Assembly (NCBI GenBank): GCA_013288235.1
Contig: JABDCF010000006.1
Coordinates: 1-64,000, forward strand
Reading direction: 5' to 3'
Source of the DNA: Bacteroidota bacterium
GTDB taxonomy: Bacteria > Bacteroidota > Bacteroidia > Sphingobacteriales > Sphingobacteriaceae
DNA: 64,000 nucleotides
The notes under the pieces were generated by a model. It was not told where the DNA came from. It did not search any database and worked only from the letters and a program-made list of their open reading frames with translations. Both the position numbers and the translations under genes were made by a program. Positions 19,668 to 47,341 of this stretch are shown in pieces. Positions within the stretch are counted from its first letter, which is position 1; every line of letters begins with the position of its first letter.

Positions 19668-21830
19668 TTAATTTCTTGGTTTTTTTGAATGATTATGTAC
19701 GATAGCTTTATTTAAAACCCACCCTGCAAATTTAGTATTAAGATGTTTAAGGTAATCAATATATTGGCCGTGCGACCTTGAAATACTTTTGTTTGCCTCG
19801 AAAACCGCTATTGTTTTATTTGTAAATAATATCCACTCTTTTGATTTATTTAATGAATCGAGCGGCGGCAGGTCAATCAATATGATATCGTACCTTGATT
19901 TTAACTCATTTATCTCGTTTTGAATATGCCTTTCGTCATTGATCTCCAGTAAGGAAACATCACCACCCCTGTTACCCAAAACACTTATGGCACTGGTGTC
20001 CCTTTCAATGTATGAGCTGCTCCTGAAATAGTCTTCAATAAATAGTTTTGGCTGTATTATTTTACTTAAAGTAGGATTGTTAAAATTGCCATCTATCAAT
20101 AAAACTTTTTTATTAATTGCCGAATATGAGTAGGCCAGGCTAGTCGCCAGCAGCGTTTTACCTTCGCCTTCGCCAAGGCTCGTGATGCCCAGAATTTTCT
20201 CGCCCTTAAGTTCCTGGTCAATTTCAAACCTTACTGAACGAAGCAACTCTTTAAACTGCTTCATCTTTTGCCTGTTTTCAACGTCCCAAAGTTTTCGCAG
20301 GTCGGGCTTTGGGCCGTGTATCAAATTTAACGAGCCAAGTAACGGTAATTGAGTTTTGTTAACCAGGTCGGTGGGCTCTTTTATATTATCATCAAGGTAA
20401 TAAAGTATAAACAGCACCAAAATGCAAATAACAAAGCTCACAATGCCGCTAAGTACTATCAGGAGCGCTTTTTTTGATGGTTCGGCAACATCAGGCGTGG
20501 CAGGTTCTACCTGCATCAGCTTTATCGAAAAATTTGATTGAAGGTTTATCGCGTTATATTGCTTTAAAACGTCTAAATACTCCTGGCTTGCCACCGCAAC
20601 ATCAGATTCATAAGTTTTAACAGTTGCATCAAAAGGCACCAGCCTTTTAAACTTTGCATCCAAATCAGAAAGCTCTTTATCAATAGCCTGCACACTATAT
20701 TTTGCAAGGTCTCTTGATACCTCAAGCTCCAGCTTTTTAGCAACAAGGTTATCTTTATTTACGAGGGGGTTAGTAATGTACTTATCCGAGGTATTGTTAA
20801 TTTCGGCAGTAAGTTGCTTTTGCAGCGAATCGAGGACCGGTTTATATGTCGGGTTAAAACCGCTGTGAACATATTGTTCATTTAGTGTCCGCAGTTGGTC
20901 TTCAGTACTTGTAATTGCCTGGTTATACTGGCTCACTGTCGATTCGATATATTGCCTGTCTTTTGGGTTAAACTTGTCGTTTATTGATTTTACAGCGCCT
21001 TCATAAGATGCAATGGTCCTTTGGGCTTCAAGTTTTTTATCCTTGTAAGTCAGTATTTGTGCATCGATGTCTTTTGCCTGGTCTTCAAGGTTTAAAATTC
21101 CATTTTTTATCTTGTATTGCTGTAGCGAATCCTTTTTCTCGCTCAATGCGTTTCGTTTTTGATCCAGTAATTTGGATAAGAAATCTATCGCATTTGATTC
21201 GTTTTGTTTAACGTTTACTGTATAATAATCCAGAAATTCCTTACAAATGGTATTTACAACAAAAGCTGACAATTGCGGGTTTTCGGAAGAATAGGTTATC
21301 GTAATAAAGTCACTTTCTCCGTCGCGGTCAACAGACAGGTCTTTCCGTAACGAACGCTCGTCGTATTTCATCGAAATAAGCAGTTCGTTCAATCCGCTTT
21401 CATCTTTATTATACAGGGATAAGGGCTCGCTGTTTTGCAGTTTATATTTATAAACTAACAATGCGTGGTCAACCGCAGGTTGACTTAGGTTTTTGAACTG
21501 ATGGTTTAGCTTTCTGAAAGGAGTAGGGCTGCTCAGGTCGTGAATGATCAACTGGTAAGAAACATTATCAACCAGTTTTTTCAGCTTAATGATCTCCGTA
21601 AGGTTGCTAAACTCGCGTGTGATCTCATCCTGCTGGGCGTTGGGCGTGTTGTCTTTATCTAAAAGGTGCCTTGATGCATCAACAATGCCTGTAGCAATCT
21701 GCGTGTTTGAAACATATTCACCCGGTAGGTTTTTGACAAGGAAGTACGAGGCAATCACCGTTGCCAAAACAACGAGGATTATTATATATTTATATTTGCC
21801 TAAAAGAGAAAAATAAGACGATACTTCCAT
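19668..21830 (-). CDS. Wzz/BY-kinase-like chain-length determinant with C-terminal CpsD-like ATPase domain
   Basis: Wzz-type N-terminus, coiled coil, second TM, Walker A-like 'GEGEGKTLLATSLAYS', 'VLLIDGNFNNPTLS', 'YDIILIDLPP'. Confidence 0.88.
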   Translation of the reverse strand: MEVSSYFSLLGKYKYIIILVVLATVIASYFLVKNLPGEYVSNTQIATGIVDASRHLLDKDNTPNAQQDEITREFSNLTEIIKLKKLVDNVSYQLIIHDLSSPTPFRKLNHQFKNLSQPAVDHALLVYKYKLQNSEPLSLYNKDESGLNELLISMKYDERSLRKDLSVDRDGESDFITITYSSENPQLSAFVVNTICKEFLDYYTVNVKQNESNAIDFLSKLLDQKRNALSEKKDSLQQYKIKNGILNLEDQAKDIDAQILTYKDKKLEAQRTIASYEGAVKSINDKFNPKDRQYIESTVSQYNQAITSTEDQLRTLNEQYVHSGFNPTYKPVLDSLQKQLTAEINNTSDKYITNPLVNKDNLVAKKLELEVSRDLAKYSVQAIDKELSDLDAKFKRLVPFDATVKTYESDVAVASQEYLDVLKQYNAINLQSNFSIKLMQVEPATPDVAEPSKKALLIVLSGIVSFVICILVLFILYYLDDNIKEPTDLVNKTQLPLLGSLNLIHGPKPDLRKLWDVENRQKMKQFKELLRSVRFEIDQELKGEKILGITSLGEGEGKTLLATSLAYSYSAINKKVLLIDGNFNNPTLSKIIQPKLFIEDYFRSSSYIERDTSAISVLGNRGGDVSLLEINDERHIQNEINELKSRYDIILIDLPPLDSLNKSKEWILFTNKTIAVFEANKSISRSHGQYIDYLKHLNTKFAGWVLNKAIVHNHSKKPRN

Positions 21831-21833: not shown

Positions 21834-22520
21834 TTATTTTATGCTTTCCAGCTTGGCCCCCAAAAGCTCTTCAAGATTGGTTTTAGCAGTAAATACAGCC
21901 AGTTCGGCCTGTAGCCTGAATGAATTTTGATTATAAAGGTTTGTTAACGCTTCATTGTAAACAGTGAACGTAGTTTCGCCTCTTTCAAATGTATGTTTCA
22001 ACTGATTTACAGCCGTTGTTGCATCCTGTGTGGCATTTACCTTATTGCGTAAATCTGCCTGTGCTTCTATGTAAGCAAAGTAAAAGCGTTTTACATTTGC
22101 CTCAATCGTTAAAAAATATTGTTCTTGCTGCTCTTCGGCAACTTTAACCGCTTCTCTGGCATTGTGTACTGTGTATGGCCTTTCGAAAAGCGAACCCAAA
22201 CTTACTGAAGCCACCAATTGTAGCCCGTTAAAAATTATGGGGTTTGTTGCACTTGTTGTATTGGGGCCCTGCGGGCTGTAAATATACGATGCACTAAAAG
22301 CATCGAGCCAGGTAAAACTAACCTGGTGAAAAGTGCCCCTGGCGATATTGATTTGATCTTGCAGTATTTTAACTTGCGGATAGTTCTTTTTAGCCGTAGC
22401 GATCAATTTTTCAAGGTAAGGGTATGACAGGTCCTGGAACATGGTTTCCTGTGCATGAATATTAGCGGCAAAAGTTAAAATAAATAATGCGAGGCAAATA
22501 GTTCTAAATTTATTATTCAT
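21834..22520 (-). CDS. Short TolC/outer-membrane-efflux-like protein (228 aa)
   Basis: Signal peptide; long helices with 'ARGTFHQVSFTWLDAFSASYIYSPQG' and 'KHTFERGETTFTVYNEALTNLYNQN' typical of the OEP family, about half normal length. Confidence 0.68.
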   Translation of the reverse strand: MNNKFRTICLALFILTFAANIHAQETMFQDLSYPYLEKLIATAKKNYPQVKILQDQINIARGTFHQVSFTWLDAFSASYIYSPQGPNTTSATNPIIFNGLQLVASVSLGSLFERPYTVHNAREAVKVAEEQQEQYFLTIEANVKRFYFAYIEAQADLRNKVNATQDATTAVNQLKHTFERGETTFTVYNEALTNLYNQNSFRLQAELAVFTAKTNLEELLGAKLESIK

Positions 22521-22526: not shown

Positions 22527-23615
22527 TTAAACTTTTTCTTTCTGAAAAACAGCCGGCACAGTCCTTACCAGGATCTTCATATCAAGCCAAAAAGAATAGT
22601 TTTGAGCATAAAAGTTATCTAATTTTTTCCTTTCACGCTCCGACATATCTAATTTTCCACGTTTAGTTATCTGCCACAAACCTGTTAGCCCTGCAGGCCC
22701 TAAAAACCGCATCGACCACTCATTGGAAGTTAACATTTCAGCTTCATAAACGGGCAACGGCCTGTTACCAACTAATGACATATCTCCCCAAAGAATATTG
22801 AATAGTTGAGGGAGTTCGTCTAGGCTCGAATTTCGCAAAAATTTGCCGAGTTTAGTAACACGGGGGTCGTCTTTAATTTTAACAAATGCGGCTTTTGTGC
22901 CCCCATCCTCATTTGAATACTGATTTTGTGTGGATAACTCAAGTAGTAATTTATCAGCATCGATGCGCATCGACCTGAATTTGTAAAAATCAAACACTTT
23001 ATAACCTGTCCCAACGCGTTTGCTTTTGTAAATTACCGGCCCTTTTGAATTTAATTTTATCGCAATTACAATAGCGAGCATTATCGGCGAAAGAATTAAA
23101 AGCATAGCGCCCGATACAAAAAGATCGATAAGCCGTTTGCCAAACGGCATAGTGTATTTTATATCAACCTCCTGCGAAATGTCGGTCAATTTAGGCTTGA
23201 TCAATTTAAACTTTACAAGGAAATTTAACCGCTCGCGCAGGTCGGACATTGAAAAAGGATAGATATAAAAATCATGCACTTTTAGCCGCATGGCATTTAA
23301 TTTTAATCCTTTGTCATTTGACAGCGATATAAGCACAATAATAACGCCGTTAAATAAAAAGTTGCTTTTTAGCCGCTCTACCAGGGCAAAGCATTCTCCA
23401 TTTTCATCAACTTCTGCTAAAATTATTTCGGGGATGGTTAATATCGACTGGTTACCCAAATATTCTTCAAGCTGCACCAGCGAATTATTAAAAAAAATGT
23501 TAAAATAAGTATTGAGTTCGCCGGCTACTAAATCTTTTAATTCTAATCCGGCATACGCGATCCTGGTGTGCGAAGCTGCATTTTCATTCCATTCAGTTGC
23601 TATGGGTTGCGTCAT
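22527..23615 (-). CDS. Undecaprenyl-phosphate sugar phosphotransferase (WcaJ/PssY-type) with N-terminal receiver-like domain
   Basis: 'GKRLIDLFVSGAMLLILSPIMLAIVIAIKLNSKGPVIYKSKRVG', 'FYKFRSMRIDAD', 'SLDELPQLFNILWGDMSLVGNRP'. Confidence 0.92.
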   Translation of the reverse strand: MTQPIATEWNENAASHTRIAYAGLELKDLVAGELNTYFNIFFNNSLVQLEEYLGNQSILTIPEIILAEVDENGECFALVERLKSNFLFNGVIIVLISLSNDKGLKLNAMRLKVHDFYIYPFSMSDLRERLNFLVKFKLIKPKLTDISQEVDIKYTMPFGKRLIDLFVSGAMLLILSPIMLAIVIAIKLNSKGPVIYKSKRVGTGYKVFDFYKFRSMRIDADKLLLELSTQNQYSNEDGGTKAAFVKIKDDPRVTKLGKFLRNSSLDELPQLFNILWGDMSLVGNRPLPVYEAEMLTSNEWSMRFLGPAGLTGLWQITKRGKLDMSERERKKLDNFYAQNYSFWLDMKILVRTVPAVFQKEKV

Positions 23616-23982
23616 AAATGTTTAGTACTTGTATTATGGCTGATTTTAATGAAGTGGGATTAAATGGTTTTGGCATATAAGCATCAACTTGAAAAGGCAT
23701 GTTGCTAACCTGTTCATCCAAATCATGGGCGGCCGAAAGCATAATTATGGGAATATCGCGAAAAAGGCCGCTGATCTTTACATTCTTAATGAATGACTGC
23801 CCGTCAAAATAAGGCATTTGAAGGTCAGAAATTATCAATTCGGGGATATTACCATCTTCGAGCCATGAAAAAGCATCGATACCATTGTTTCTAACAACTA
23901 TTTCATATTCTTTTGAAAGAATAAAATTTAACAGCTTTAAAATGCTCAGGTCATCGTCAACAATCAGTATTTTTTTTTTCAT
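23593..23982 (-). CDS. Single-domain (CheY-like) response regulator
   Basis: 'KILIVDDDLSILKLL', 'LIISDLQMPYFDG', 'IPIIMLSA', 'YMPKPF'. Confidence 0.93.
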   Translation of the reverse strand: MKKKILIVDDDLSILKLLNFILSKEYEIVVRNNGIDAFSWLEDGNIPELIISDLQMPYFDGQSFIKNVKISGLFRDIPIIMLSAAHDLDEQVSNMPFQVDAYMPKPFNPTSLKSAIIQVLNIYDATHSN

Positions 23983-24271: not shown

Positions 24272-25015
24272 TTAAAAATAAATATCCCAAAACCTTGCCA
24301 AACCCATTTTCGGGTTGCTTGCTACGCTTGCTAAATATTGTCCGTTTATTTTAAACGTACTTACTAACCAGTCGTTAGTCGAGGATATGATATCGCTGTC
24401 AGCAAAATGATCGCCATCAAGGCAGGGGATTAATTTTAGGTCTTCATCCAGCCCCTTGCCGGTAGCTTTTGTCAATGCCTCTTTGCGGGTCCAAAGCATA
24501 AAAAAACGCTCAATTGACGAGGCCTGATTTATGTAGGTTATCTCTTTGTTACTAAAATTATCCTGCAACACATCCTTATAACCGTAACTGTTGTTTATAA
24601 ACTCAGTATCAGCGCCAATTTCCGAATTCGAAACGGCAAGCAATATCCAATCGCCGGAGTGTGAGAGGTTATAACAGAGGGTGTTGCCTGCATTGCTTTT
24701 TATATAAGGTTTTTTATTGGGCCCGACCTCAAACTCAACCGCCGAAGGTTGCAGGTTTAAATACTTTCCTAAAATATTTCTGAGGGCGCCGCGGCTAACG
24801 ATAAACCTGTTTTTGTCGCGGATATGAAAATACCTGTTGGCCCTGGCAATTTCGTCAGGGTGCATTATTGTTAAAAAGGTATTGAGAAAAGATAGGTTTG
24901 AAGTAATGTTGATCCTCCAGATATCCACATGGTTGCCCATAGCATAATCACAGCCGGAACCGCTTACCCAGTCTATATTATTTAAATACTGATTGTGAAT
25001 TTTAATAGCAGGCAT
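24272..25015 (-). CDS. 4'-phosphopantetheinyl transferase (Sfp type)
   Basis: 'FNLSHSGDWILLAVS'-like region (CYNLSHSGDW), 'IGADTEFI', 'FFMLWTRKEALTKATGKGL'. Confidence 0.92.
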   Translation of the reverse strand: MPAIKIHNQYLNNIDWVSGSGCDYAMGNHVDIWRINITSNLSFLNTFLTIMHPDEIARANRYFHIRDKNRFIVSRGALRNILGKYLNLQPSAVEFEVGPNKKPYIKSNAGNTLCYNLSHSGDWILLAVSNSEIGADTEFINNSYGYKDVLQDNFSNKEITYINQASSIERFFMLWTRKEALTKATGKGLDEDLKLIPCLDGDHFADSDIISSTNDWLVSTFKINGQYLASVASNPKMGLARFWDIYF

Positions 25016-25016
25016 T

Positions 25017-25110
25017 TTAAGTCGAAAGTCTGAAGTCTAAAGTCTTAAGTCCATGAAGAAATCAAAAAATAAACTTTTCGACTCAAGACTTAGACTTAAA
25101 ACTTTCGGCT
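25017..25110. repeat. Imperfect inverted-repeat element, same family as 15885-15995
   Basis: aagtcgaaagtctgaagtctaaagtcttaagtcc facing gactcaagacttagacttaaaactttcggc. Confidence 0.7.
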
Positions 25111-25113
25111 AAA

Positions 25114-28100
25114 TTACTTATTCACCGCCTCATCAAGGCATTTTTGCAATATATTGGCAAATATCTTATCGTTCGGGGCTTTGAATATGGTATTATGTTC
25201 TCCGGGGATATTATGAATATTTACACCTTTAAGTGCATAAGGTTTCCATCCAAGATGCTGGGCCTCATCAAGATAAAAAGTTTGATTCTCTGCCCGGAAT
25301 ACTTCTACCGTAATATTATATGGTTTTAGTACGTAATGTTTCTCGGCATATTCATTCATTTCATCAACTTTATTGGAATATCCGAAAATACCGGCCCTGG
25401 TTTGATTTTTACCATATTTTAGTTTCCAGTAAGCCCTGATGATCCGACGTTTTATGTTGGTACTACGTTCAACAATGGTATATTTAAAACCATTGGAGAA
25501 AGTGAATGTATATAACACACGTTTAATAAAAAACCTTCCCCTTTTATACAGCCTGATCAGCGTTGGGTCGTTATATGGCGAACGGTAGGCATAAGTATCA
25601 AACATGGCCAGCATTTTTACCTCCTTGCCCAATGCCTCAAACTGTCGTGCCATTTCAAAGGCAATTATGCCGCCAAAGGAATAGCCAGCGAGTGCATAAG
25701 GGCCCGTAGGGTTTTGCTCCATTATAGCTCCTATATAATAAGCGGCAATATCTTCAATATTATTTAACGGCTCATCAATGCCGTTAAGGCCTTTCGCCTG
25801 TAAGCCATATACCGGCTGGTCTGCATGAAGGCCCATTGCCAGTGTATTGAACAGCAATACATTTAAACCTGCCCCATGAACCATATAAAGTGGCATTTTG
25901 CTGCCTTTAGGCTTTATCGGTACCAGCGAATCCCAGGTAATTGTTTTACCGCCAAGTTCAAGTGTGCGGGCAAGTTGTTCAACTGTTGACGACTCAAAAA
26001 GGGTGGCAAGCGGCAAACGTTTGCCTGTCTCTTTCTCTATCCTTGCCATTACCTGTACGGCAATAAGCGAGTGACCGCCTAATTCGAAAAAATTATCGTC
26101 TACACTAACTTTTTCAACGCCTAAATATTCTATCCAGATATCTGCCAGCAGTTTTTCAATGTCGGTTCGTGGCGCCAGGTACCTGTTACTTTCTTCGGTT
26201 AAAGATTCCCCGTATTTTGCCAACGCTTTTTTATCAACCTTCCCGTTGGGGGTTAATGGCATTTCGTCAACTATTATAAAATTATCAGGCACCATATAGT
26301 CAGGCAGCGAGCTTTTTAACCTGTCTTTCCAGTCAAGTGCCTGACTTGCTGTGTCTATGGTTTCATCATGATAATTAACAACTACAAAAGCCACCAGTTT
26401 ATCAACGCCTAATCTATCGGGTTTGGCAATTACAACGGCTTCTTTTATATTATTTTCTTTAGCAAGCTGAAATTCTATTTCACCAGTCTCAATACGATAA
26501 CCCCTTATTTTTACCTGTGCATCAATCCGGCCCAGGCATTCAATCTCACCATTGGCCATAAATTTGCCCAGATCGCCGGTGCGGTACATTTTGCTGCCGG
26601 TTTGTTTGGTAAAGGGGTCATCAATAAATTTTTCGGCAGTTAATTCGGGACGGTTTAAATAACCTTTGGCTACGCCATCACCGCCGATATAAATTTCGCC
26701 TGCTACACCCGGTACCAATGGGTTTCCATATTTATCAAGGATGTATATCGATGTGTTATTAACAGGCCTGCCAATAGAGATAACCGTATCGGCAGCAGTT
26801 AATTGTTTTACCGTTGACCATACTGTAGTTTCGGTAGGGCCGTATACATTCCACAAGGAAGATGCACGGCTTAAAAGCCTGTTAGCCAGTTCTTGCGGCA
26901 AAGCTTCGCCGCCGCAAATAACTTTTATTGGGGTTGATGCATCCCAACCGGCCTCAAGCATTATACGCCAGGTATAAGGCGTGGCCTGCATCATGGTCAC
27001 CTGTTCTTTTTTAATAATATCAAGTAAAACACGGCCGTCTTTTGCATCGGCTGTATCAGCAAGTATTATTTCGGCGCCGGTCAGCAGCGGAAGAAATAAC
27101 TCCAGTCCGGCAATATCAAAGCTTATGGTTGTTACGGCAAGCAATTTGTCTTCAGCAGTAATGCCTGGGGCATTTTGCATGCTGTAAAGAAAATTTACCA
27201 GGTTTTTATGCGTAATCTGCACGCCTTTTGGGTTGCCGGTTGACCCGGATGTATAAAGGATATAAACGAGGTCATCACCTCTGACATCGACCTCGGGCTC
27301 AATTATTGCATGCTGCTGCAGGGTTGCCCATTCGTCTTCAAGTATTAATTCCTTAGCGTTTGATTCATAGCGGCCTTTATACTTTGCCGAAGTTAATAAA
27401 ACTACCGCCTGCGAATCATCCAGCATGTAGTTGATGCGGTTAAGCGGGAAAATAGGGTCGAGCGGTATATAAACGGCGCCCGTTTTCACTATCGCCAATA
27501 TGGAAGTAACCATTTCGGCAGACCTGTCGAGTGAAAACCCGACTTTATCGCCTTTTTTTACACCATTTTTTATAAGTAATGCGGCAAGTTGGTTGGCATT
27601 TTCATTTAGCTGTTTATAAGTTATTTTTTGTTCGCCAAATGTTATTGCTGTTTTGTCAGGTGTTTGCGCCGCTCGTTCAGTAATTAATTTATGTATGGGT
27701 ATATGCATTGGATAGGGGTATTTTGTGTTATTCCAGGCATCTAATTGTATTTCTAACTCTTTCGCATTTATTAAAGGTATATTTTTAATTAATATTTCAG
27801 GTTCATTTACCAATTCACGCAGTAAAAATTCAAATCCGTCCATCATTTGTTTAATGGTTTCGGGTTTAAATAAGGCTGTATTATATGACCACTCCAGCGT
27901 CGGAGCTTCATCATGCCCTGCAATGTTTAAAAATAATTCAAAGTTTTCATATTCTCGAGGATTACTAATTAATTTATGCTGCAACCCGTAAAATTCAACG
28001 TCATCATCAAGCCCCATATCAATATTAAACATCACAGGTACCAATGGCACTCTTGAAGGGTCACGCGCGATGTTTAATTTTTTTAATAAGCTACCAAAAG

Positions 28101-29349
28101 TATATAATTGATGATCGTATGCATCCAGTATATCAGTCCTCCGTTGTTTTAAGTATGATCTGAAAGAAAGATCTCCGGAAGGGTAGCTCCTTAATGCCAG
28201 TAAATTTACGCAATGGCCAACAAGCCTGTAATTATCTGTGGCCGGCTGACCTGCTGCCGGTAAACCAATTATAATTTCATCCTGGCCGGTTAACCGCTGT
28301 AAAAAAACTTCGAACGCTGCCAGCAGCGTAGTTACAAAACTGCTGCCTGCGCTTTTGCCAAGTTTTTTTACCTCGTTTGTTAAGCTACCATCCATCACGA
28401 AATCTTCGCGATGGCTTTTGTAAGTACGTAAAGCAGGACGGGGGTAATCCGTAGGAAGGTTTAAAAGGTGTTCGCTGCCTTTAAACTGATCTACCCAGTA
28501 TTGCTCGGTTTCTTTGTATTCCCGGCTTTCAGACAGGTTTAATTGTTGAAGGGCATAATTAGAAAAAAGTGGTGCTTCAGGTAAACTAACGGGCAGGCGC
28601 TTTACATAGCCCGAATATAGCTTGCTGAGGTCTTGCATCATGATGCCGATAGACCAACCATCGCAAATGATATGATGAGCAACAAATGTTAAATAATGCT
28701 CGTTGTTTGATAATTTATATAGTGATGTTTTAAAAAGCGGCCCTTTTTCAAGGTCGAAAGGTGTTAGTACATTTTTTTTGTTATCATCTTTTAAAAACAA
28801 CTGCTGTTTTTCGGCAGTCATTGATGACAGGTCCTGGTATTCAATATCGAGGTGTAATTCCCTATATACACAAATACTTGCACCATCTGCACTGAACGAA
28901 ATCCTGAGTGCCTGGTGCATATTCACTACGCCCTGTAATGCCAGCAGCATGGAGTCCTTATCAAATGCGCCTGTTAAAAGTAATGAAGCACATTCGTTAT
29001 AGGCACAGTTGGCTGGGTCTCCGCCGATAAGGCACGAGGTCCATATTTCTACCTGCGATTCGGTAGCCGGTGCGATCATAGTTATTTCGGGCCCTGCAAA
29101 CGGATCAAAGTCAACCTCACTTGTATGGTACACAGGTTTATTACTCTCCATGTTTAATTTAACCGCTTGGTCAACCCCCGAAATACCGGGATTTTCAAAC
29201 GGATCAAAGTTAACCGGCTTTATATCATATCCAGCTTTGTAGTTTTCCACAATAGGGTAAGCATCCATTACTGTGGGCGAAATTACTGGTTCAGCAAACG
29301 GATCAAATTCCACCGGGGTAGTATTATAAAGTGACGTTTTTGTTTCCAA
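25114..29349 (-). CDS. Non-ribosomal peptide synthetase, C-A-PCP-TE module
   Basis: C domain 'HHIICDGWS', A domain 'YILYTSGSTGNPKG', PCP 'DNFFELGGHSLIAVQV', TE 'GYSFGGIIAFEMA'. Confidence 0.96.
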   Translation of the reverse strand: METKTSLYNTTPVEFDPFAEPVISPTVMDAYPIVENYKAGYDIKPVNFDPFENPGISGVDQAVKLNMESNKPVYHTSEVDFDPFAGPEITMIAPATESQVEIWTSCLIGGDPANCAYNECASLLLTGAFDKDSMLLALQGVVNMHQALRISFSADGASICVYRELHLDIEYQDLSSMTAEKQQLFLKDDNKKNVLTPFDLEKGPLFKTSLYKLSNNEHYLTFVAHHIICDGWSIGIMMQDLSKLYSGYVKRLPVSLPEAPLFSNYALQQLNLSESREYKETEQYWVDQFKGSEHLLNLPTDYPRPALRTYKSHREDFVMDGSLTNEVKKLGKSAGSSFVTTLLAAFEVFLQRLTGQDEIIIGLPAAGQPATDNYRLVGHCVNLLALRSYPSGDLSFRSYLKQRRTDILDAYDHQLYTFGSLLKKLNIARDPSRVPLVPVMFNIDMGLDDDVEFYGLQHKLISNPREYENFELFLNIAGHDEAPTLEWSYNTALFKPETIKQMMDGFEFLLRELVNEPEILIKNIPLINAKELEIQLDAWNNTKYPYPMHIPIHKLITERAAQTPDKTAITFGEQKITYKQLNENANQLAALLIKNGVKKGDKVGFSLDRSAEMVTSILAIVKTGAVYIPLDPIFPLNRINYMLDDSQAVVLLTSAKYKGRYESNAKELILEDEWATLQQHAIIEPEVDVRGDDLVYILYTSGSTGNPKGVQITHKNLVNFLYSMQNAPGITAEDKLLAVTTISFDIAGLELFLPLLTGAEIILADTADAKDGRVLLDIIKKEQVTMMQATPYTWRIMLEAGWDASTPIKVICGGEALPQELANRLLSRASSLWNVYGPTETTVWSTVKQLTAADTVISIGRPVNNTSIYILDKYGNPLVPGVAGEIYIGGDGVAKGYLNRPELTAEKFIDDPFTKQTGSKMYRTGDLGKFMANGEIECLGRIDAQVKIRGYRIETGEIEFQLAKENNIKEAVVIAKPDRLGVDKLVAFVVVNYHDETIDTASQALDWKDRLKSSLPDYMVPDNFIIVDEMPLTPNGKVDKKALAKYGESLTEESNRYLAPRTDIEKLLADIWIEYLGVEKVSVDDNFFELGGHSLIAVQVMARIEKETGKRLPLATLFESSTVEQLARTLELGGKTITWDSLVPIKPKGSKMPLYMVHGAGLNVLLFNTLAMGLHADQPVYGLQAKGLNGIDEPLNNIEDIAAYYIGAIMEQNPTGPYALAGYSFGGIIAFEMARQFEALGKEVKMLAMFDTYAYRSPYNDPTLIRLYKRGRFFIKRVLYTFTFSNGFKYTIVERSTNIKRRIIRAYWKLKYGKNQTRAGIFGYSNKVDEMNEYAEKHYVLKPYNITVEVFRAENQTFYLDEAQHLGWKPYALKGVNIHNIPGEHNTIFKAPNDKIFANILQKCLDEAVNK

Positions 29350-29351
29350 AA

Positions 29352-32300
29352 TTAATTGCCATTAAGTTTAACCTGTAAATATTTACCGGGGTTATTAGTG
29401 TCGCTAATAAACCAGCCAGGGTTTCCGTCTTTATCGCGTCCAAGTTTAGCACCAGGGAAAGGGGATTCCATATAAGGGTTTACTTCTTCTTTTACTATAG
29501 TAGGTTCTGGTTTTTTTGAAGGGAGAAATCCTGAGGTTATAAGTTCATCAACACTTTCGCGGAAAGCGGTTATGATTTTATTAACATCATCGGCTGTATG
29601 GGCTGCTGTTAAAAAGCAAGGGAACAAATCCCATATATGGATACCTTTGTCGCGCATCAGCGTAAACAACAGTTCCCCATAAGGCAGTTCTTCCTTAAAT
29701 TTAATTTTCCACAACGAGCCGAACGACGGGCTATATAACGGTATGCCTTCTTTTTCGCAAATGGCATTTAATTCACCAGAGAGGTATTGGGTAAGTGCAT
29801 TTAAGCCTTGCTGTAATGCCGGCCCTTTGTTCTTCATAAACTGCAATGAAGCTTTGCCCGCAGCAAGTGCCAGCGGATGGCGCACAAATGTGCCTGCAAA
29901 ATAGGTAACACCTGCTTCGGGCTGCGAATCATCGCCATATTGCCAGGTGCCGCCGTCAAGCGCATCCATATACAGTTTTATGCCTGCAATAGCGCCGATA
30001 GGCATGCCGCCGCCAATTACTTTGCCATAGGTGCCGATGTCGGCTTTTATGCCAAACATGGCCTGTGCGCCGCCGGGGTGCATCCTGAAACCGCTGATCA
30101 CTTCGTCAAATATCAAAACAGTATTTGAGTTGGTGGTGATCTGCCTTACCTTTTTAAGGAAATCAACCGGCTGGAATTCGGGGCGCCTGCTTTGTACCGG
30201 TTCAACCAAAACGGCTGCAACTTCATGCGCCCTTTCCTGGATGATCCTCAACGATTCGTCAGTACCGTAATCTAAAATCAGCATATTTTGCACCACTTCT
30301 GGCATAATGCCAGGTGCTGCTGGAATGGTTTTTAATTTTTTTGTGCCGCGAACGATCACTTCATCATTAATACCATGGTATGAACCGCTGAAAGCAATGA
30401 TCAATGAACGGCCTGTAACTGTCCGCGCGATACGCATCGCGCCCAAAACTGCCTCGGAGCCTGTATTGCACAAAGCTGCCCGGTCGAAACCGGTTAACTC
30501 GCATATCAGCTTGCAAACATCGCCTGCAAGCTCGTGCTGCGGGCCAATTTCGTAGCCGTTTTCAACCTGCTGCAATACTGCCTGTTTTAAAACATCGGGT
30601 TGATAGCCCAGGAAATTTGAGCCAAAGCCATTTAAGGCATCGATGTACTCGTTACCATCAATATCCCAAACGCGGCTGCCTTTCGAACGGTTTACCACCA
30701 ATGGGTAAACAATTTCTTTTGTTAAAGGCCGGAAGCCGCTTACAACACGCGGATCCGCCATGTAATCACGGTGCTTTTGAGTATATGCCTTACTGCCGCT
30801 GGTTTTGATATTGTAACGAACGGTTAGTTTTTGTAAAAACGATTGCTGTTTTTCGCTTAAACCCTGTACCTGTTTTTCAATACGGGCGGTTGCGCCGAAT
30901 GGTTTTTTAACTTCAACCTGTTCTTCGGGTGTTAAGTCATATTGTATAGATGATTTTGCATGACCATTAACAGGCACAGTAGCAACAGGCGCTGCCGGTT
31001 GTGGCGCACTGCCATTTTGAAGGCTGGCCAGCTGGGTTGCAAGCATTTGTATTTGCTGCTGTATCAAATCCAGGGCTGGGTTAGCCTGGCTTTGGATAGC
31101 AGGGGTGGGGCTGTTATAAACCGGCTGACTTTGAGCGGGTGCAACCTGTGGGTTAAATGCTTCGGCAGGCAAATTGGCATCCAGATATGCTGCAAGGCTT
31201 TGAATGGTATTATATTCCTCAAATAATTTGCGGAAGGTAATAGGCACATTGAACTCTTTTTTCAAATTGGTTGCAATTTGTGTCAGCAACAGCGAATCAA
31301 ATCCTATCTCGATAAAATTCATATCCGCCGAAGCGCCGTCTATCTCAATGCCCGATGCATCTTCAAATAGTTCTTTAAGTTTACCTGTTAATAGTTCTTG
31401 TCTCATCAGGTTATGTTGTAAAATTGTTTGTTCTGTTTCTAATGGTGTTTTTTGTACTTCTAAAATTTCCGTTATAGGATTTGCCTGGGGTATCGGCTCA
31501 AGCCAGTAACGTTTATTATCAAATGCGTAAGCCGGTAAATTTATTTTTAATCTTTGCTGATTTTGATAAAAAGCCGTCCAATCAGGTGTTATACCATTGA
31601 GCCATAACTGGCCTAATGCCCTTAATACGGAATAGTACTCAGAAGATGTTTCATTTTTTTCGAACCCGGCTATAATAGGCGTTGATTTGATAGTTGCCTG
31701 TTGGCGGGCAAGCGTTGCCAGGGCATATCCGGGGCCTACTTCAAGCAACAGGCGGCCTTCATCTTCCTGCAAAGTATCAACGGCGTTTGCAAAGCGGACG
31801 GTTTTGCGCAGGTGTTGCGCCCAGTAGGCCGGGTCTGTCGCTTCTGCCTCGCTCATCCATTTGCCGGTAACTGTTGATACGATGGGTTTTACCGGAGGAT
31901 TTAATTTAACCGATCTTACCACATCCTCAAACGGTGCAACAATATCATCCATCATTGCTGAATGGAATGCGTGGCTTGTTTGCAATAGCTTGGCCGCGAT
32001 ATTTTTTTCGGCCAATTCGGCTTCAAATGCTGCAATAGCTTCAATTTCGCCCGCTACAACACATAACTTGCTGCTGTTAATTGCGGCTATGGATAAATCT
32101 TTCGGTAAAATGGCTTCTAATTGAGCGGCCTCAAGCCTTACCGACAACATGCTGCCTTTTGCAACTTCGCTTACCATTCTTGCCCTTGCAGATATTAATT
32201 TTAGCGCGTCTTTTAAATCAAGAACCCCTGCAAAATGTGCGGCTACAAATTCGCCGATGCTATGGCCTGTAAATACTGTAGGCTGTATGCCCCAGCTCAT

Positions 32301-35300
32301 CCATAGTTTTGCCATGGCATATTCTAAAATGAATATGGCCGGCTGGGTATAAAAAGTGTTTTTAATTTTTTCGCCTGATGTTTCGTCAACAACCGGGGGA
32401 TAGATGATATTGAATATGTCCGCCTGCGGGGTGTCTTTTAATAACCCGATACATTCATCTACAGCAATTTTAAAAACAGGTTCAATATCATACAATTCCC
32501 TGCCCATATTTAAGTATTGCGAACCCTGGCCTGGGAACATAAACACTACCTCGGATGCTTTTGAACTTAGTTTTTTTGATGTGGAGGCATCGATAGTTTG
32601 GGACGATAGTTTTGATAGCAGCTCATTGCTATCACCCGCAATTATAAAACGCCTGGTATTAAAATCAGCGCGTGTACTTTGTAGTGTATAAGCTATATCA
32701 GCTATATTAATATTTTCATTTTGCTGAACATAGCCCGCAAGTTTTTTAGCGTAAGCCGCAACACTTGTCTCCGTTTTTGCCGACCAGATGATGAGCGATA
32801 AAGGTTTTGAAGCTTCTGGTTGAGCCATTACATTTTCAAATTCCTCCAGTATTACATGCACATTTGTGCCGCCAACACCAAAGGAACTTACACCTGCACG
32901 CCTTTTTTTAGCACTTTGCCAAGCCTGTAAAGCTGCGTTAATATAAAAAGGACTATCATTGAGATCGATATTAGGATTAAGCTGGTTGAAATGTAACGAT
33001 GGCGGTATTTGCTGGTGGTGCAATGCCAAAGCTGTTTTTATAAGCCCGGCCACGCCCGATGCCGCTGTTAAGTGCCCAAGATTGCTTTTTACCGAACCTA
33101 TGGCACAATATTGTTTTTGTTCCTGCGTGCCAAAAGCAAGGCTAAGGCCTTCAATTTCAATTGGGTCGCCTAATGGGGTTGCGGTGCCGTGTGCTTCAAT
33201 ATAACTGATAGATGATGCATCTATGCCGGCATCGTTAATAGCCATAGCTATTGCGCCTGCCTGTCCCTGTGCGCTCGGGCCGCCGAAGCTGCCTTTATCT
33301 GCACCGTCATTGTTTATGCCTATACCTTTTATTATCGCATAAATGGTATCGCCGTCGCGTTCAGCAGCTTCGCGGCTTTTTAAAAGCACTACGCCTGCGC
33401 CATCGCTGAAAACTGTGCCGGTTGCATCAGCATCAAATGGCTTGCAATGGCCATCCTTGCTCATGATCGAACCTTCCTCGTAAAAATGCCCGCTTTTTAA
33501 CGGCGAGGTTATTGATGCCGCGCCGGCAAGCACCACATCACATTGGCCATCTCTTATACTGCTAACTGCCTGGGCAATTGCCAGCAAAGAGGTTGAACAT
33601 GCGGAATAGACCGCTACTGCCGGGCCGGTAAGGTTTAACTGGTAAGCTGTACGGGTAGCTATATAATCTTTTTCGTTTAGTAAGCGTACGTTAAAATGGC
33701 CATTTTTCTCTACCAAATCAGGGTGTGCCAAAACGTTATTGGTAAAATAAGTATTGTAACCACAACCTGCAAAAACGCCAACGGAACCTGTATATTTTTG
33801 CGGTAGATAACCGGTACTTTCCAATGCTTCCCAGGCTATTTCTAAAAATACACGCTGCTGCGGATCCATTAATTCGGCATTGCGCGGGTTGAAACCGAAA
33901 AAACCGGCATCAAACTCATCGGCACCATCAATTATACCCCGGGCTTTTACATATGCCGGATCGTTTTTAATATTCGATGAGATTGATGAGTCTATTTCAG
34001 CATCGGTAAAAAAGCTGATCGCTTCTTTGCCTGCTGCGAGCATGTCCCAAAATTCATCGATGGTATTTGCGCCGGGGAAACGGGCGGCCATGCCTATAAT
34101 AGCAATATCGCCGTTGCCGGTGTTTTCTTTTTTCTTTTTAACAGCTGCCACGGCTTTATTTACGCCGGTAATCAAATTGGCAATGCCGCTAATAGTAGGG
34201 AACTGGTATAATTTGGTAATTGGTACCTCGTAACCAAACCTTTGCTTTAACGCTGCAACAGCTTTTAAAGCAAGCAAGGAATTACCGCCTAACTGGAAAA
34301 AATTATCGGCAACGCCAATCTTTTCGATCAGCAATAACTCAGTCCATACGCCTGTTATATTTTTTTCAATAGGAGTTGATGGCGCCTTGTATAAAACACT
34401 TAGTTCCGGCCGCTTAAAATCGGGTTTTGGCAAATTTTTTCGGTCAACCTTGCCGCTGGTGGTTTTTGGCAATTCGCTTAACCAAACGTAGGCCGATGGG
34501 TGCATAAAATCTGGCAGTTGCTGCTCGATGCTTTTGCGCACATAATCAGTATCCGGGATGTTTTTCGCAGATACAAGGTAAGCTACCAGGCGTTTTTGTC
34601 CCGGTATATCTTCTCTTGCTACAACAATAGCCTGCTGAATATCATTTAGCCGGTTTATCAATACCTCAATCTCGCCCAGCTCAACGCGGTTGCCACGAAT
34701 TTTTACTTGTGTGTCGCGGCGGCCAAGATAATCGATGTTGCCATCGGGCATATAGCGGGCAAGGTCGCCGGTGCGGTATATCCTTGTTGTTTTATTTTCA
34801 GTTTCCTGCCAGTAAACAAATTTCTCGGCAGTCATTTCCGGGCGGTTTAAATAGCCATCCGCCAGGCTAAGGCCACTTACGCAAAGTTCACCGGTTTCGC
34901 CATAAGGTACTTGTTTTAATTCTTCATCAAGGATAAGTATCTCTGTCTCATCAATGGCCACACCAATAGAAGGTAGTGGTGGCCATAAGGCCGGGTCGCC
35001 GTCCAATATCAGTTGCGTTACCACATGGGTTTCAGTCGGGCCGTATTGGTTAAATAACTTACATCCCGGCAACGCCGAAAAAAAGCGGACGATCTGCGGG
35101 GTTATCTTTAATTGTTCGCCGGCAGTCATTACCTCTTTTAAACAAGCCGGGAAATGTTTTTCTGCGTCAGCCGCTTCGGTTAAATATTGCAGTACTACAA
35201 ACGGTAAAAATATCCGGTTAACGGTATGTTTTTCAATGTAATGCAACAGCCTGTTAGGGTCAACTCTTAAAGTTTCATCCACCAAAACCAATGTGCCACC

Positions 35301-35951
35301 GGTGGTTAAAGTGGCAAATATCTCCTGGAAGGATACATCGAAACTTAATGGGGCAAACTGTAAGGTATTAACGCCAATTGTTGATATGGAATGCTTTTGC
35401 TGCCACGACAGCAGGTTTACCATCGCCTGGTGCCCCATAGAAACACCTTTTGGCGTTCCGGTAGAACCGGAGGTATACAATACATAGCAGGCAGATTTTC
35501 CAGTTGTTATAGATTGGTTTGATGCCTGGTGTTCTTTATCAGAAAGTAATATATTGACAGATAATGGTTCGAAAAGATGTTTTTGTGCAGATACGGTTAA
35601 ACAAAGGTCAATGCCTGAGTCGGTAATAATTTGCTGCAGGCGGTCTTGCGGGTATTCAGGGTCGAGCGGTAAATATGCTTTGCCCGATTTTAATATCGCA
35701 AGGACACTTATTACAGTTTCGATAGTGCGTACGGTGCTAACGCCGGCAACTAATGAGGCAGGCGATTGTGCCAATATCGCGGAAGCCAAACTATCTGCCC
35801 TCTGGCCTAATTGGCTATAGGTTAGTTTTTCATCGCCAAAAACAACAGCAATTTCATCAGGGGTTTTGCTTTTTTGTTCCTCGAACAGCTGATGAATTAG
35901 TTTGCCATCAATATTGTTTTCCATAATTGTTTTGCCAGTAGAAGTATCCAT
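29352..35951 (-). CDS. Hybrid NRPS-PKS, A-PCP-KS-AT-ACP-aminotransferase
   Basis: A 'YVLYTSGSTGTPKG'; PCP 'DNFFQLGGNSLLAL'; KS 'VYSACSTSLLAIA'; AT 'TGHSIGEF' and 'HAFH'; ACP 'IEIGFDSLLLTQ'; PLP class III aminotransferase 'LIFDEVISGFRMHPGGAQ' and 'GTYGKVIGGGMPIGA'. Confidence 0.96.
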   Translation of the reverse strand: MDTSTGKTIMENNIDGKLIHQLFEEQKSKTPDEIAVVFGDEKLTYSQLGQRADSLASAILAQSPASLVAGVSTVRTIETVISVLAILKSGKAYLPLDPEYPQDRLQQIITDSGIDLCLTVSAQKHLFEPLSVNILLSDKEHQASNQSITTGKSACYVLYTSGSTGTPKGVSMGHQAMVNLLSWQQKHSISTIGVNTLQFAPLSFDVSFQEIFATLTTGGTLVLVDETLRVDPNRLLHYIEKHTVNRIFLPFVVLQYLTEAADAEKHFPACLKEVMTAGEQLKITPQIVRFFSALPGCKLFNQYGPTETHVVTQLILDGDPALWPPLPSIGVAIDETEILILDEELKQVPYGETGELCVSGLSLADGYLNRPEMTAEKFVYWQETENKTTRIYRTGDLARYMPDGNIDYLGRRDTQVKIRGNRVELGEIEVLINRLNDIQQAIVVAREDIPGQKRLVAYLVSAKNIPDTDYVRKSIEQQLPDFMHPSAYVWLSELPKTTSGKVDRKNLPKPDFKRPELSVLYKAPSTPIEKNITGVWTELLLIEKIGVADNFFQLGGNSLLALKAVAALKQRFGYEVPITKLYQFPTISGIANLITGVNKAVAAVKKKKENTGNGDIAIIGMAARFPGANTIDEFWDMLAAGKEAISFFTDAEIDSSISSNIKNDPAYVKARGIIDGADEFDAGFFGFNPRNAELMDPQQRVFLEIAWEALESTGYLPQKYTGSVGVFAGCGYNTYFTNNVLAHPDLVEKNGHFNVRLLNEKDYIATRTAYQLNLTGPAVAVYSACSTSLLAIAQAVSSIRDGQCDVVLAGAASITSPLKSGHFYEEGSIMSKDGHCKPFDADATGTVFSDGAGVVLLKSREAAERDGDTIYAIIKGIGINNDGADKGSFGGPSAQGQAGAIAMAINDAGIDASSISYIEAHGTATPLGDPIEIEGLSLAFGTQEQKQYCAIGSVKSNLGHLTAASGVAGLIKTALALHHQQIPPSLHFNQLNPNIDLNDSPFYINAALQAWQSAKKRRAGVSSFGVGGTNVHVILEEFENVMAQPEASKPLSLIIWSAKTETSVAAYAKKLAGYVQQNENINIADIAYTLQSTRADFNTRRFIIAGDSNELLSKLSSQTIDASTSKKLSSKASEVVFMFPGQGSQYLNMGRELYDIEPVFKIAVDECIGLLKDTPQADIFNIIYPPVVDETSGEKIKNTFYTQPAIFILEYAMAKLWMSWGIQPTVFTGHSIGEFVAAHFAGVLDLKDALKLISARARMVSEVAKGSMLSVRLEAAQLEAILPKDLSIAAINSSKLCVVAGEIEAIAAFEAELAEKNIAAKLLQTSHAFHSAMMDDIVAPFEDVVRSVKLNPPVKPIVSTVTGKWMSEAEATDPAYWAQHLRKTVRFANAVDTLQEDEGRLLLEVGPGYALATLARQQATIKSTPIIAGFEKNETSSEYYSVLRALGQLWLNGITPDWTAFYQNQQRLKINLPAYAFDNKRYWLEPIPQANPITEILEVQKTPLETEQTILQHNLMRQELLTGKLKELFEDASGIEIDGASADMNFIEIGFDSLLLTQIATNLKKEFNVPITFRKLFEEYNTIQSLAAYLDANLPAEAFNPQVAPAQSQPVYNSPTPAIQSQANPALDLIQQQIQMLATQLASLQNGSAPQPAAPVATVPVNGHAKSSIQYDLTPEEQVEVKKPFGATARIEKQVQGLSEKQQSFLQKLTVRYNIKTSGSKAYTQKHRDYMADPRVVSGFRPLTKEIVYPLVVNRSKGSRVWDIDGNEYIDALNGFGSNFLGYQPDVLKQAVLQQVENGYEIGPQHELAGDVCKLICELTGFDRAALCNTGSEAVLGAMRIARTVTGRSLIIAFSGSYHGINDEVIVRGTKKLKTIPAAPGIMPEVVQNMLILDYGTDESLRIIQERAHEVAAVLVEPVQSRRPEFQPVDFLKKVRQITTNSNTVLIFDEVISGFRMHPGGAQAMFGIKADIGTYGKVIGGGMPIGAIAGIKLYMDALDGGTWQYGDDSQPEAGVTYFAGTFVRHPLALAAGKASLQFMKNKGPALQQGLNALTQYLSGELNAICEKEGIPLYSPSFGSLWKIKFKEELPYGELLFTLMRDKGIHIWDLFPCFLTAAHTADDVNKIITAFRESVDELITSGFLPSKKPEPTIVKEEVNPYMESPFPGAKLGRDKDGNPGWFISDTNNPGKYLQVKLNGN

Positions 35952-36257: not shown

Positions 36258-37739
36258 ATGAATAAAAAATACCTGCTGCCTTTTATATTTTTACTTGCCT
36301 GCGCCACTTCGGCAAAAGCAAACTTTAATTTCGATGCCAATTGTGTTGAGGCCTATAAAGCTATCCTTGGCTTAAGAATGGCCGAGGCAAAAACACTTAT
36401 CCAAAAGGAAAAGCAACAAGAACCAGGAAATGGCATTACGGTTTTGCTTGAAAATTATGTTGATTACTTTGGCCTGTTAACCTCGGAGAGTAAAGACGAT
36501 TACGAAAGGCTGAAGGATAATAAATCAACCAGGCTTTCTGCATTGGAAGAAAACGATAGCAAATCACCCTATTATCTTTTTTCGCAGGCCGAGGTTTATT
36601 TACAATGGAGTTTATTGAGAGCTAAATTTGGCGATTATGTATCTTCCTCATTTGATGCAAAAAAGGCAAGCGGATTGCTAAAGGACAATAACGAAAAGTT
36701 CCCTGATTTTTTGCCCAACCAAAAAAGCCTGGCTTTGGTAAATATTATTTTTGGTGCGATACCGGCAAGTTTTAAAGGTATAACCAGGTTTTTAGGGATG
36801 ACCGGTAATACCCAGGCAGGCATTAAACAATTAGAAACGCTACGGGCTGAGCTGCCAAAAACAAAATACAGTTTTTATAATAACGAGGTTATATTTTTTA
36901 TCTGCAATATTGATATCAGCATACTGCATAGTACCAACGACTATGCGAAGTTAACCAGCTATATGGCGGAAATGGACAACAATAGTTTATTAAAGGCTTA
37001 TTTGCAGGGCTATGTTGCTTCGAAAACAGGCCATAACGACGAGGCTATTGCCTTTTTAGAGGCCAGTCCGAAGTCAGGCCAGTATATAAAATTCCCGGCT
37101 ATAAATTATTATTTGGGATGCGCCAAACTTAACCGGCTGGATAGTGATACGCCTGCGGCTTTGTTTGATTATATAAAAGATTTTAGGGGAGTAAACTATA
37201 TAAAAGACGCTTACTTAAAGATAGCCTACTATTACCTTTTGCACAATGACCCGGAAAAATATGCCTATTATATAAAACAGGTTAAAACCCGTGGCAACGC
37301 CATTGATGAAAAGGATAGACAGGCGTTAAGCGAAGCAAATGATACCAAACCGGATATCGACCTGTTAAAAGCAAGGTTTTATTTTGATGGCGCCTATTAC
37401 AATAAAGCATTGGCGCAGCTATTAAACAAGGATGTAAACAGCCTTAAATTAACAAGGGACAAAACAGAATATTACTACCGCCTTGGCCGTGTTTATGATA
37501 AGACGGATAAATTTAGCGAAGCCGTTTTAAACTACCAGCGGGCAATAAATTTTGGCAAAACCACCCATTATTACTATGCTGCCAACGCTGCACTGAGCAT
37601 TGGCCGACTTTATGAAACAAAACGGGATTATAAAAAAGCAGCGGAATACTATAACCAGGCCATCGATATGAAAGATCATGAATACAAAAACAGTATTGAT
37701 GATGATGCAAAGGCGGGGTTGAAGCGGATAGGGGGGTGA
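36258..37739 (+). CDS. Secreted tetratricopeptide-repeat protein
   Basis: Signal peptide; C-terminal TPR-like repeats 'YYRLGRVYDKTDKFSEAVLNYQRAI' and 'ALSIGRLYETKRDYKKAAEYYNQAI'. Confidence 0.85.
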   Translation: MNKKYLLPFIFLLACATSAKANFNFDANCVEAYKAILGLRMAEAKTLIQKEKQQEPGNGITVLLENYVDYFGLLTSESKDDYERLKDNKSTRLSALEENDSKSPYYLFSQAEVYLQWSLLRAKFGDYVSSSFDAKKASGLLKDNNEKFPDFLPNQKSLALVNIIFGAIPASFKGITRFLGMTGNTQAGIKQLETLRAELPKTKYSFYNNEVIFFICNIDISILHSTNDYAKLTSYMAEMDNNSLLKAYLQGYVASKTGHNDEAIAFLEASPKSGQYIKFPAINYYLGCAKLNRLDSDTPAALFDYIKDFRGVNYIKDAYLKIAYYYLLHNDPEKYAYYIKQVKTRGNAIDEKDRQALSEANDTKPDIDLLKARFYFDGAYYNKALAQLLNKDVNSLKLTRDKTEYYYRLGRVYDKTDKFSEAVLNYQRAINFGKTTHYYYAANAALSIGRLYETKRDYKKAAEYYNQAIDMKDHEYKNSIDDDAKAGLKRIGG

Positions 37740-39423: not shown

Positions 39424-39963
39424 TTATTTTGTGAATTTTATGCTATTTAATATGTCATTCAAAATGTTTGTTCCATTATCGTGATCTGTTTTGTCGAATT
39501 GCAAACAGCCAGATATTGCCGTTACATTACTTGTATTTGTATTACTAAAACAGAAAAATCGATAATATTCAACGTTTCCGACTATATCATTTGTCACCAG
39601 AATCCGGGTATTATTAATTACTTTAATACTTGATGAATAACTTTTATCTTTTTTAGATGTTTCGTCCGACCCTCTTTTCAACTTCATTAAATGATCTTCT
39701 TCAACACTTCCAGTTGTAGTGAATAATGAAATAAGGACATTATCTATTTTATAGATATGAGGAGTATTAAAAAAATTGACAGTATTTAAAGCTATTTTAT
39801 TATTATTAAACCTATTACCTGCAAATGATATAGCTTGTTGCTTATTCAGTTTTTCTGCCCTTGTAGGCAAGTCAATACTTGTTGTATTACTTAAAGCAAT
39901 CTGCTGCCCTATACTTGTAAGGCTGTAGATTACACATATTATCAGTAAAATTATTTTTTTCAT
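39424..39963 (-). CDS. Small secreted protein of unknown function
   Basis: Signal peptide 'MKKIILLIICVIYSLTSIGQQ'; tandem paralog downstream. Confidence 0.7.
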   Translation of the reverse strand: MKKIILLIICVIYSLTSIGQQIALSNTTSIDLPTRAEKLNKQQAISFAGNRFNNNKIALNTVNFFNTPHIYKIDNVLISLFTTTGSVEEDHLMKLKRGSDETSKKDKSYSSSIKVINNTRILVTNDIVGNVEYYRFFCFSNTNTSNVTAISGCLQFDKTDHDNGTNILNDILNSIKFTK

Positions 39964-39990
39964 CTTGATTTAAATTTATAATGAATAAAG

Positions 39991-41712: not shown

Positions 41713-41844
41713 ATACGGATAAAGTTTTAGGATTTATCTTTAAAAAGGCCTATGCCTGATTGGGTGGAAAGCTGCCAATTAAAATCGGATTTCCAAAAAA
41801 AATTTTATTTTAATTATGATTTTGCCAGGATCAATGATTAAATC

Positions 41845-42495
41845 CTATGGTTCTTCAGTGAACCTCACATTATCCTTCATCGCCTGCAAATGATGCCTAT
41901 TCACTTTTTTCTTCACCGCATCAAAATCAAAGTTGTGGTTAGTGCCGCAGTCAAGCATGGTCATATACGCCGAGGGTTTGGTGCTTTCAAAATATTCGAT
42001 GAGGTTACTGCTCCAGATGAGCTGGCAGTTTCCTTTTGTGCGGGTGGCTATTTCGTAAATGCCTTCTTTAAATTCAATATGCCTGATGTGCTGTGATTCC
42101 AGGTTGCCCTGGGGGTAGTAAATGAGGATATTGCCGGCCTCATTTAACAGGGACGCGGCATAATCCAAACTTTCATTGATGGAGCGGGTGCCGGGATCGA
42201 CCGAAAAAGAGCCTGCATGCTTTAGCCACCAATTTTTTTGCATCTGTTTTTTTACCGACATAGTATATAAGCCTTTTAGCGGTTGCTGTTTGTTGATGTA
42301 TTTAAAACACAAAAAAATAGCAAAAAAACCATCCAGAAAGCCAAAATGGTTACACATTAATATGTACGAATGGTTTGGTTTTATATCAACGCCTTTAATA
42401 ACCATTTTATTAAAACGTCGCCGGAAAAACCAAATAAGGAACAAGGCGCCCCGTTTGATAAAGAAAAATGGAAGCGGTTTTGCCTTTATGATCAT
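41845..42495 (-). CDS. PlsC-like 1-acyl-glycerol-3-phosphate acyltransferase
   Basis: HX4D motif 'MCNHFGFLDGFF' and 'YYPQGNLES'. Confidence 0.82.
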   Translation of the reverse strand: MIIKAKPLPFFFIKRGALFLIWFFRRRFNKMVIKGVDIKPNHSYILMCNHFGFLDGFFAIFLCFKYINKQQPLKGLYTMSVKKQMQKNWWLKHAGSFSVDPGTRSINESLDYAASLLNEAGNILIYYPQGNLESQHIRHIEFKEGIYEIATRTKGNCQLIWSSNLIEYFESTKPSAYMTMLDCGTNHNFDFDAVKKKVNRHHLQAMKDNVRFTEEP

Positions 42496-43313: not shown

Positions 43314-43720
43314 GGTGCTGTAGGTTTAGTGTCGATAAAGGCAGCCGCCCATACATAATCGCCATCGTGGGAAATAGTAAGGCTTATTTTTAAATTAAAT
43401 GTCTCTTTATGGATGATTACCTGTGGTTCGCCTGCGATTTTATTGCGGACAATTTCTATCTTTTTCCAGCCTAACGGCGAAGGATCGACTTGTTTAATGG
43501 CTTTATAAACGGCTTCTTTAGCTGCCCATGTGGATGCATAGCGTAACAGGAAATCATCAAACTGCTCGCAATAAACTATTTCGCCGACTATATAAACTTT
43601 TTTTTTGAAAAGGTCATTGAAGGACGCTATAAAATCAGGGACAAACACCAGGTCGTTGCCAACTGCAAATGTTTTGCCTGTGGTAATTTCATTTAGGGTT
43701 TTTAATAATTCATTCTCCAT
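43310..43720 (-). CDS. AcpS-like holo-ACP synthase (start moved to internal Met MENELLKTLN)
   Basis: 'GNDLVFVPDF', 'RYASTWAAKEAVYKAI', 'ISHDGDYVWAAAF'. Confidence 0.85.
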   Translation of the reverse strand: MENELLKTLNEITTGKTFAVGNDLVFVPDFIASFNDLFKKKVYIVGEIVYCEQFDDFLLRYASTWAAKEAVYKAIKQVDPSPLGWKKIEIVRNKIAGEPQVIIHKETFNLKISLTISHDGDYVWAAAFIDTKPTAP

Positions 43721-44522: not shown

Positions 44523-44565
44523 TTACTGATGTTGGGCCTAATAGGCAAAATTAAATTCTTTTTTG

Positions 44566-44985: not shown

Positions 44986-44998
44986 TTTGATTGGTGGT

Positions 44999-47338: not shown

Positions 47339-47341
47339 ACT

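Follow-up and report, generated by a model that had tools for sequence, protein, structure and literature searches.

An NRPS-PKS assembly line with an embedded aminotransferase beside an exopolysaccharide operon in a Bacteroidota soil bacterium

In the mycosubtilin synthase MycA, a fatty acyl ligase domain starts the assembly line, a class III PLP aminotransferase embedded in the PKS part lies between an ACP and an NRPS condensation domain, and the product is a beta-amino fatty acid. Bimodular NRPS-PKS lines that end in a thioesterase (TE) usually yield free products. In the DltA/DltC systems, an adenylation (A) domain and a carrier load a small amino acid that is destined for a surface polymer. 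The layout A-CP-KS-AT-CP-PLP stands in a 2013 table for Pedobacter heparinus (PMC3870968). The protein in question, C6XWU5, is listed as A-CP-KS-AT-CP-PLP1 with the prediction Nrp-Mal-Gly-Pk, glycine being predicted after malonate, and in that table it is a sequence entry only, with neither product nor polysaccharide context given (PMC3870968).

The stretch of DNA analysed here (64,000 nucleotides, the window) comes from a soil bacterium that is placed by inference in Mucilaginibacter, and counts for "the genus" refer to the genus of the window. It carries two synthase genes, P1 and P2, and a phosphopantetheinyl transferase (PPTase) gene, directly upstream of and on the same strand as a Wzx/Wzy-type exopolysaccharide (EPS) operon. 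P1 shares its layout with C6XWU5 and its embedded aminotransferase with MycA. Unlike MycA, P1 starts with an A-PCP pair for an amino acid and is predicted to form a diamino acid, and the P1/P2 line stops after a single residue. The synthase has a fused TE, and beside it no DltB/DltD-like transfer genes were seen; the aminoacylation of cell-wall polymers by DltA/DltC-type systems is used below as an analogy only, for the role proposed for A-PCP-TE genes. What is new here is the genomic context, the association with polysaccharide genes; the architecture itself was already known.

Domains, active sites and substrate codes of the synthase

The synthase genes and their domains are the following.

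29352-35951, minus strand: P1, A-PCP-KS-AT-ACP-aminotransferase, 2199 aa (ORF, Pfam, motifs)
34449-35885, minus strand: P1 adenylation domain (A1), proline-type signature (Pfam, signature)
34152-34355, minus strand: P1 peptidyl carrier protein (Pfam, GGNSL)
32640-34109, minus strand: P1 ketosynthase with C-terminal extension (Pfam, motifs)
31644-32546, minus strand: P1 acyltransferase, malonyl-type (Pfam, GHSIGE/HAFH)
31182-31382, minus strand: P1 acyl carrier protein (Pfam, GFDSL)
29631-30707, minus strand: P1 class III PLP aminotransferase domain (Pfam, motifs), catalytic lysine in YGKVIGG at 30009-30029
25114-29349, minus strand: P2, C-A-PCP-TE, 1411 aa (ORF, Pfam)
27757-29070, minus strand: P2 condensation domain (Pfam, HHIICDG)
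26239-27681, minus strand: P2 adenylation domain (A2), glycine-type signature (Pfam, signature)
25960-26151, minus strand: P2 peptidyl carrier protein (Pfam, GGHSL)
25150-25893, minus strand: P2 thioesterase (Pfam, GYSFGG, D, H), a homologue of the A-PCP-TE thioesterase in related EPS operons
24272-25015, minus strand: Sfp/HetI-like 4'-phosphopantetheinyl transferase, ACPS/Sfp-type (Pfam)

The Pfam order is AMP-binding, PP-binding, ketoacyl synthase, acyltransferase, PP-binding and Aminotran_3 in P1, and Condensation, AMP-binding, PP-binding and Thioesterase in P2, with E-values of the main domains between ~1e-11 and 1e-94. The active-site motifs are intact: ACSTS, EAHGT and SNLGH in the ketosynthase (KS), GHSIGE with HAFH (which we take to be malonyl-specific) in the acyltransferase (AT), the serines of all three carriers, the YGKVIGG lysine and FDEV in the aminotransferase, HHIICDG in the condensation domain and GYSFGG with its D and H in the TE. 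The locus is a hybrid NRPS-PKS assembly line, and these E-values together with the intact motifs rule out chance or artefact as the origin of the architecture. The domain order given in the initial annotation, with a 2-bp gap between P1 and P2, is borne out by the ORFs, Pfam and motifs, and the absence of KR, DH and ER that it had noted is confirmed by 0 matches to these families in a Pfam scan of the synthase proteins. At the N-terminus of P2 (29085-29349) an xFDPF-type motif occurs three times, compared to once in most orthologues and twice in close relatives, and resembles a linker or docking motif that has been duplicated. A scan for the Bacteroidota promoter motif found 6 sites against 5.0 expected by chance, with none before P1.

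Starting such a line with an amino acid had been called unusual. This view is not upheld, as the same layout stands in the 2013 Pedobacter heparinus table and is widespread: together with that table, scans of the order and of GTDB rule out an unusual architecture (PMC3870968). The architecture is carried by ~120 of 401 genomes of the order (124 with a strong match, mostly in reading frames of ~2200 aa), and the GTDB-wide scan returned at least 586 relatives in Bacteroidota, Lysobacter, Rhodanobacter, Dyella, Variovorax, Rhizobium and others. Most of the Bacteroidota loci share the P1/P2 layout.

The substrate codes, which go beyond the initial annotation, read as proline-type followed by glycine-type. 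They were obtained by alignment to GrsA, with a reference region anchored on GrsA motifs, and the tenth residue, Lys, is assumed in both domains from the conserved GKVD motif. This gave DVQFMAQVV(K) for A1 and DILQIGVVW(K) for A2. The A1 signature is one residue away from DVQFVAQVVK, which is listed as Pro for Tem22 (PMC9113097). In a survey, Val236 and Gln239 were typical of proline domains and DILQLGMIWK was used for glycine (PMC12283262). A1, with Val236, Gln239 and DVQ..A.VV(K), has the features of a proline domain and its substrate is most likely proline, and A2 follows the glycine pattern DILQLG..W(K) save for Ile at the fifth position, which suggests glycine.

Across the loci that were fetched, A2 is glycine-type in most, and A1 varies, being proline-type in many Sphingobacteriaceae. 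Lysobacter-like bacteria have a DALW.GGTF signature in A1, which is Val-type.

The exopolysaccharide operon and its co-occurrence with the synthase

The operon downstream of the synthase genes contains the following genes.

23593-23982, minus strand: single-domain response regulator, first gene of the operon
22527-23615, minus strand: initiating sugar-phosphate transferase (PF02397; PGT), co-occurs with P1 in the genus
21834-22520, minus strand: outer-membrane efflux (OEP) protein
19668-21830, minus strand: Wzc-like chain-length/tyrosine-kinase protein (AAA_31)
17962-19458, minus strand: Wzy-type polymerase/ligase (PF04932)
17323-17937, minus strand: hexapeptide-repeat transferase
15941-17323, minus strand: Wzx-type flippase
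14637-15863, minus strand: glycosyltransferase (GT4-type)
13374-14579, minus strand: family 2 glycosyltransferase GT2c, directly followed by an A-PCP-TE gene in relatives
12463-13374, minus strand: family 2 glycosyltransferase GTx, with orthologues next to the synthase in Pedobacter and relatives
11291-12466, minus strand: family 2 glycosyltransferase GT2b, the terminal glycosyltransferase of the operon

The OEP gene occupies the position expected for a Wza-type export protein and encodes a short TolC-like protein (228 aa) with an OEP domain.

The association was examined in 150 genomes of the genus, the counts from which are not phylogenetically independent. P1 and the initiating transferase were found together in 61 genomes, P1 only in 4, the transferase only in 19 and neither in 66 (p=5e-20). 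The control, a ketosynthase gene neighbouring P1 in the window, was associated with neither P1 nor the transferase in the same 150 genomes (p=0.86). In three genomes (G010, G007 and G291) the synthase and the EPS operon are unlinked, yet both are present, and right after GT2c the operons of these genomes carry an A-PCP-TE gene whose signature is glycine-type like that of A2. Most EPS operons of the genus have such a second, glycine-type A-PCP-TE gene, which is absent from the operon in the window. The counts for A-PCP-TE versus P1 were 57/8/6/79 in the 150 genomes (p=2e-25) and 56/5/5/14 among those that bear the operon (p=6e-8). In the Wzc tree, three separate lineages (G018; G017 and G297; G162, G329 and G360) have the operon and lack both the synthase and the A-PCP-TE gene, and these independent joint absences partly offset the phylogenetic non-independence of the counts. 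The synthase and the Wzx/Wzy-type operon are thus associated beyond chance.

A natural empty site was observed in G217 (L163, 9806-12486), where a homologue of window positions 36258-37739 is followed by the PPTase, and P1 and P2 are missing; this genome has kept the EPS operon, the PPTase and the A-PCP-TE gene. In G021 (L164, 7506-16793) the synthase locus is decayed and partly inverted, with fragments of P1, P2, the PPTase and the sugar transferase, and the EPS operon next to these fragments looks intact. Positions 39424-48064 of the window form a second block, which encodes a ketosynthase and an acyltransferase along with two SDRs, a hydrolase and a small PPTase of the ACPS type; it resembles a flexirubin/aryl-polyene or fatty-acid-type cluster and is unassociated with P1 in the genus.

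Polysaccharide genes beside the synthase in other lineages

In 121 genomes of the genus of G310, which includes loci that match named Pedobacter, GT2b orthologues versus P1 gave counts of 51/1/22/47 (p=2e-15), and in 48 of the 52 genomes that bear P1 a GT2b orthologue is at most 12 kb away from the synthase. Pfam GT2 domains were found in 17 of 140 proteins flanking the synthase and in 3 of 130 proteins from random regions. HMMs that were partly seeded from the neighbours themselves detected polysaccharide genes within 5 kb at 16 of 30 diverse Bacteroidota loci, compared to 1 hit among 20 random regions and 1 among 10 other NRPS clusters; about half of the 30 loci thus had no polysaccharide gene at this distance. 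Because the enrichment seen with these HMMs is partly circular, the argument is carried by the Pfam tally and the co-occurrence tests.

XrtA/PEP-CTERM exopolysaccharide loci are found in Proteobacteria, and such a locus houses the P1/P2 relatives of Lysobacter concretionis. In an NCBIfam scan of the Lysobacter relative only, the synthase was located between an EpsB_2 XrtA/PEP-CTERM transferase and hydr1/hydr2_PEP-like hydrolases with a glycosyltransferase. The EPS operon in the window differs from these loci in the type of transferase and in its gene set. Relatives in Rhizobium are located near a polysaccharide pyruvyl transferase, a DegT gene and a glycosyltransferase-like gene.

Two further kinds of neighbours were observed. 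Cupin_8/JmjC-like proteins recur beside the synthase in Pedobacter, Daejeonella and Proteobacteria (e.g. L049, 7786-8628, and L117, 2943-3887), and it is possible that they are hydroxylases of the synthase product. Additionally, five Pedobacter loci (L037, L043, L065, L066 and L119) have a Core-2/I-branching-type glycosyltransferase and an FdtA-like protein next to the synthase, and mostly a DegT aminotransferase as well, which suggests a dedicated amino sugar as a possible acceptor.

Predicted chemistry and proposed role

We favour, with moderate confidence, the reading that P1/P2 is an NRPS-PKS associated with the polysaccharide of the adjoining operon, and that its product is a basic pseudo-dipeptide which would be attached to this polysaccharide as a substituent. 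The A domain of P1 would adenylate an amino acid, most likely proline, and load it on its own carrier, the KS would add two carbons from malonate and the embedded aminotransferase would replace the beta-keto group by an amine. The result would be a beta,gamma-diamino acyl unit, which for proline is 3-amino-3-(pyrrolidin-2-yl)propanoyl. The condensation domain of P2 would then link this unit to glycine, and the TE would release or transfer the product, with the carriers being primed by the PPTase. For proline, malonate, amination at the beta carbon and glycine, the predicted unit is 3-amino-3-(pyrrolidin-2-yl)propanoyl-glycine. This assembly logic, from loading through beta-amination to TE release, is that of the initial annotation and is supported by the domain order, motifs and homology. 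The linked EPS operon, which that annotation had missed, makes a polysaccharide-associated unit a likelier role than a free metabolite, and the TE or a partner may put the basic amino-acyl substituent on a sugar of the Wzx/Wzy-type polysaccharide. The glycine-type A-PCP-TE enzyme of related operons would probably carry out simple glycylation. Since the EPS operon also exists without the synthase (G217, G017, G297 and others), the polysaccharide can do without the synthase, and the decoration would be accessory.

The main alternative is that the product is a free, secreted specialised metabolite, either the diamino-acyl-glycine or a lactam or other cyclised form, and that the polysaccharide genes are adjacent through recombination hot spots. 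We consider this less likely, though it agrees with the usual fate of products from bimodular lines with a terminal TE, and the TE could merely hydrolyse or cyclise the product. The operon without the synthase in G217 and G017/G297 also fits it, as do the synthases located away from any polysaccharide gene (G102, G006, L067, L079 and L083), and the four P1-bearing genomes without a transferase of the window's type count against a polysaccharide role. Arguing against a free product, the co-occurrence persists in the unlinked cases and is not seen for the truly neighbouring control gene, the glycine-type A-PCP-TE gene lies inside the operon and is absent together with the synthase in three lineages, and other NRPS clusters of the same genomes seldom have polysaccharide neighbours.

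The second alternative, that the aminotransferase acts at another step or on another substrate, so that the product (e.g. a keto or tetramic-type compound) is not a beta,gamma-diamino acid, is very unlikely: GSA-type aminotransferases are further matches, but the best solved relative is the beta-aminating embedded domain of MycA (6kfm, E=3e-121, ~447 residues), 15 homologues show no variation in the residues that surround PLP, and the domain directly follows the ACP that would bear the beta-ketoacyl unit in a line without a KR. The catalytic lysine of MycA and the PLP-site residues, the loss of which would have spoken against the initial annotation, are kept, and the domain has the features of a MycA-type enzyme, being a class III PLP domain of fold type I that directly follows an ACP. 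In the published literature we found no described system or product for these synthase signatures, for NRPS in polysaccharide loci or for diamino acids, and in the open-access literature no product for the P1/P2 architecture.

More tentatively, at somewhat less than even chances, NRPS-PKS enzymes with embedded aminotransferases may form a widespread class (Bacteroidota, Proteobacteria and perhaps other phyla) that makes amino acid-malonate-amine-glycine units covalently attached to exopolysaccharides. Many antiSMASH-type NRPS-PKS matches with the P1/P2 layout have presumably been scored as cryptic antibiotics. If a polysaccharide role is true, the family of at least 586 relatives would belong largely to surface-polysaccharide biosynthesis. 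Bacteria would have a route to put basic, non-proteinogenic residues on exopolysaccharides, with the chemistry of specialised metabolites leading to cationic surface polysaccharides. A polysaccharide role, if true, would also explain why in several complete genomes no condensation-domain enzyme other than the synthase was detected. A single condensation domain was detected in several near-complete genomes (G346, G372, G386, G102, G058 and G194), in which the synthase locus appears to be the sole condensation-domain NRPS.
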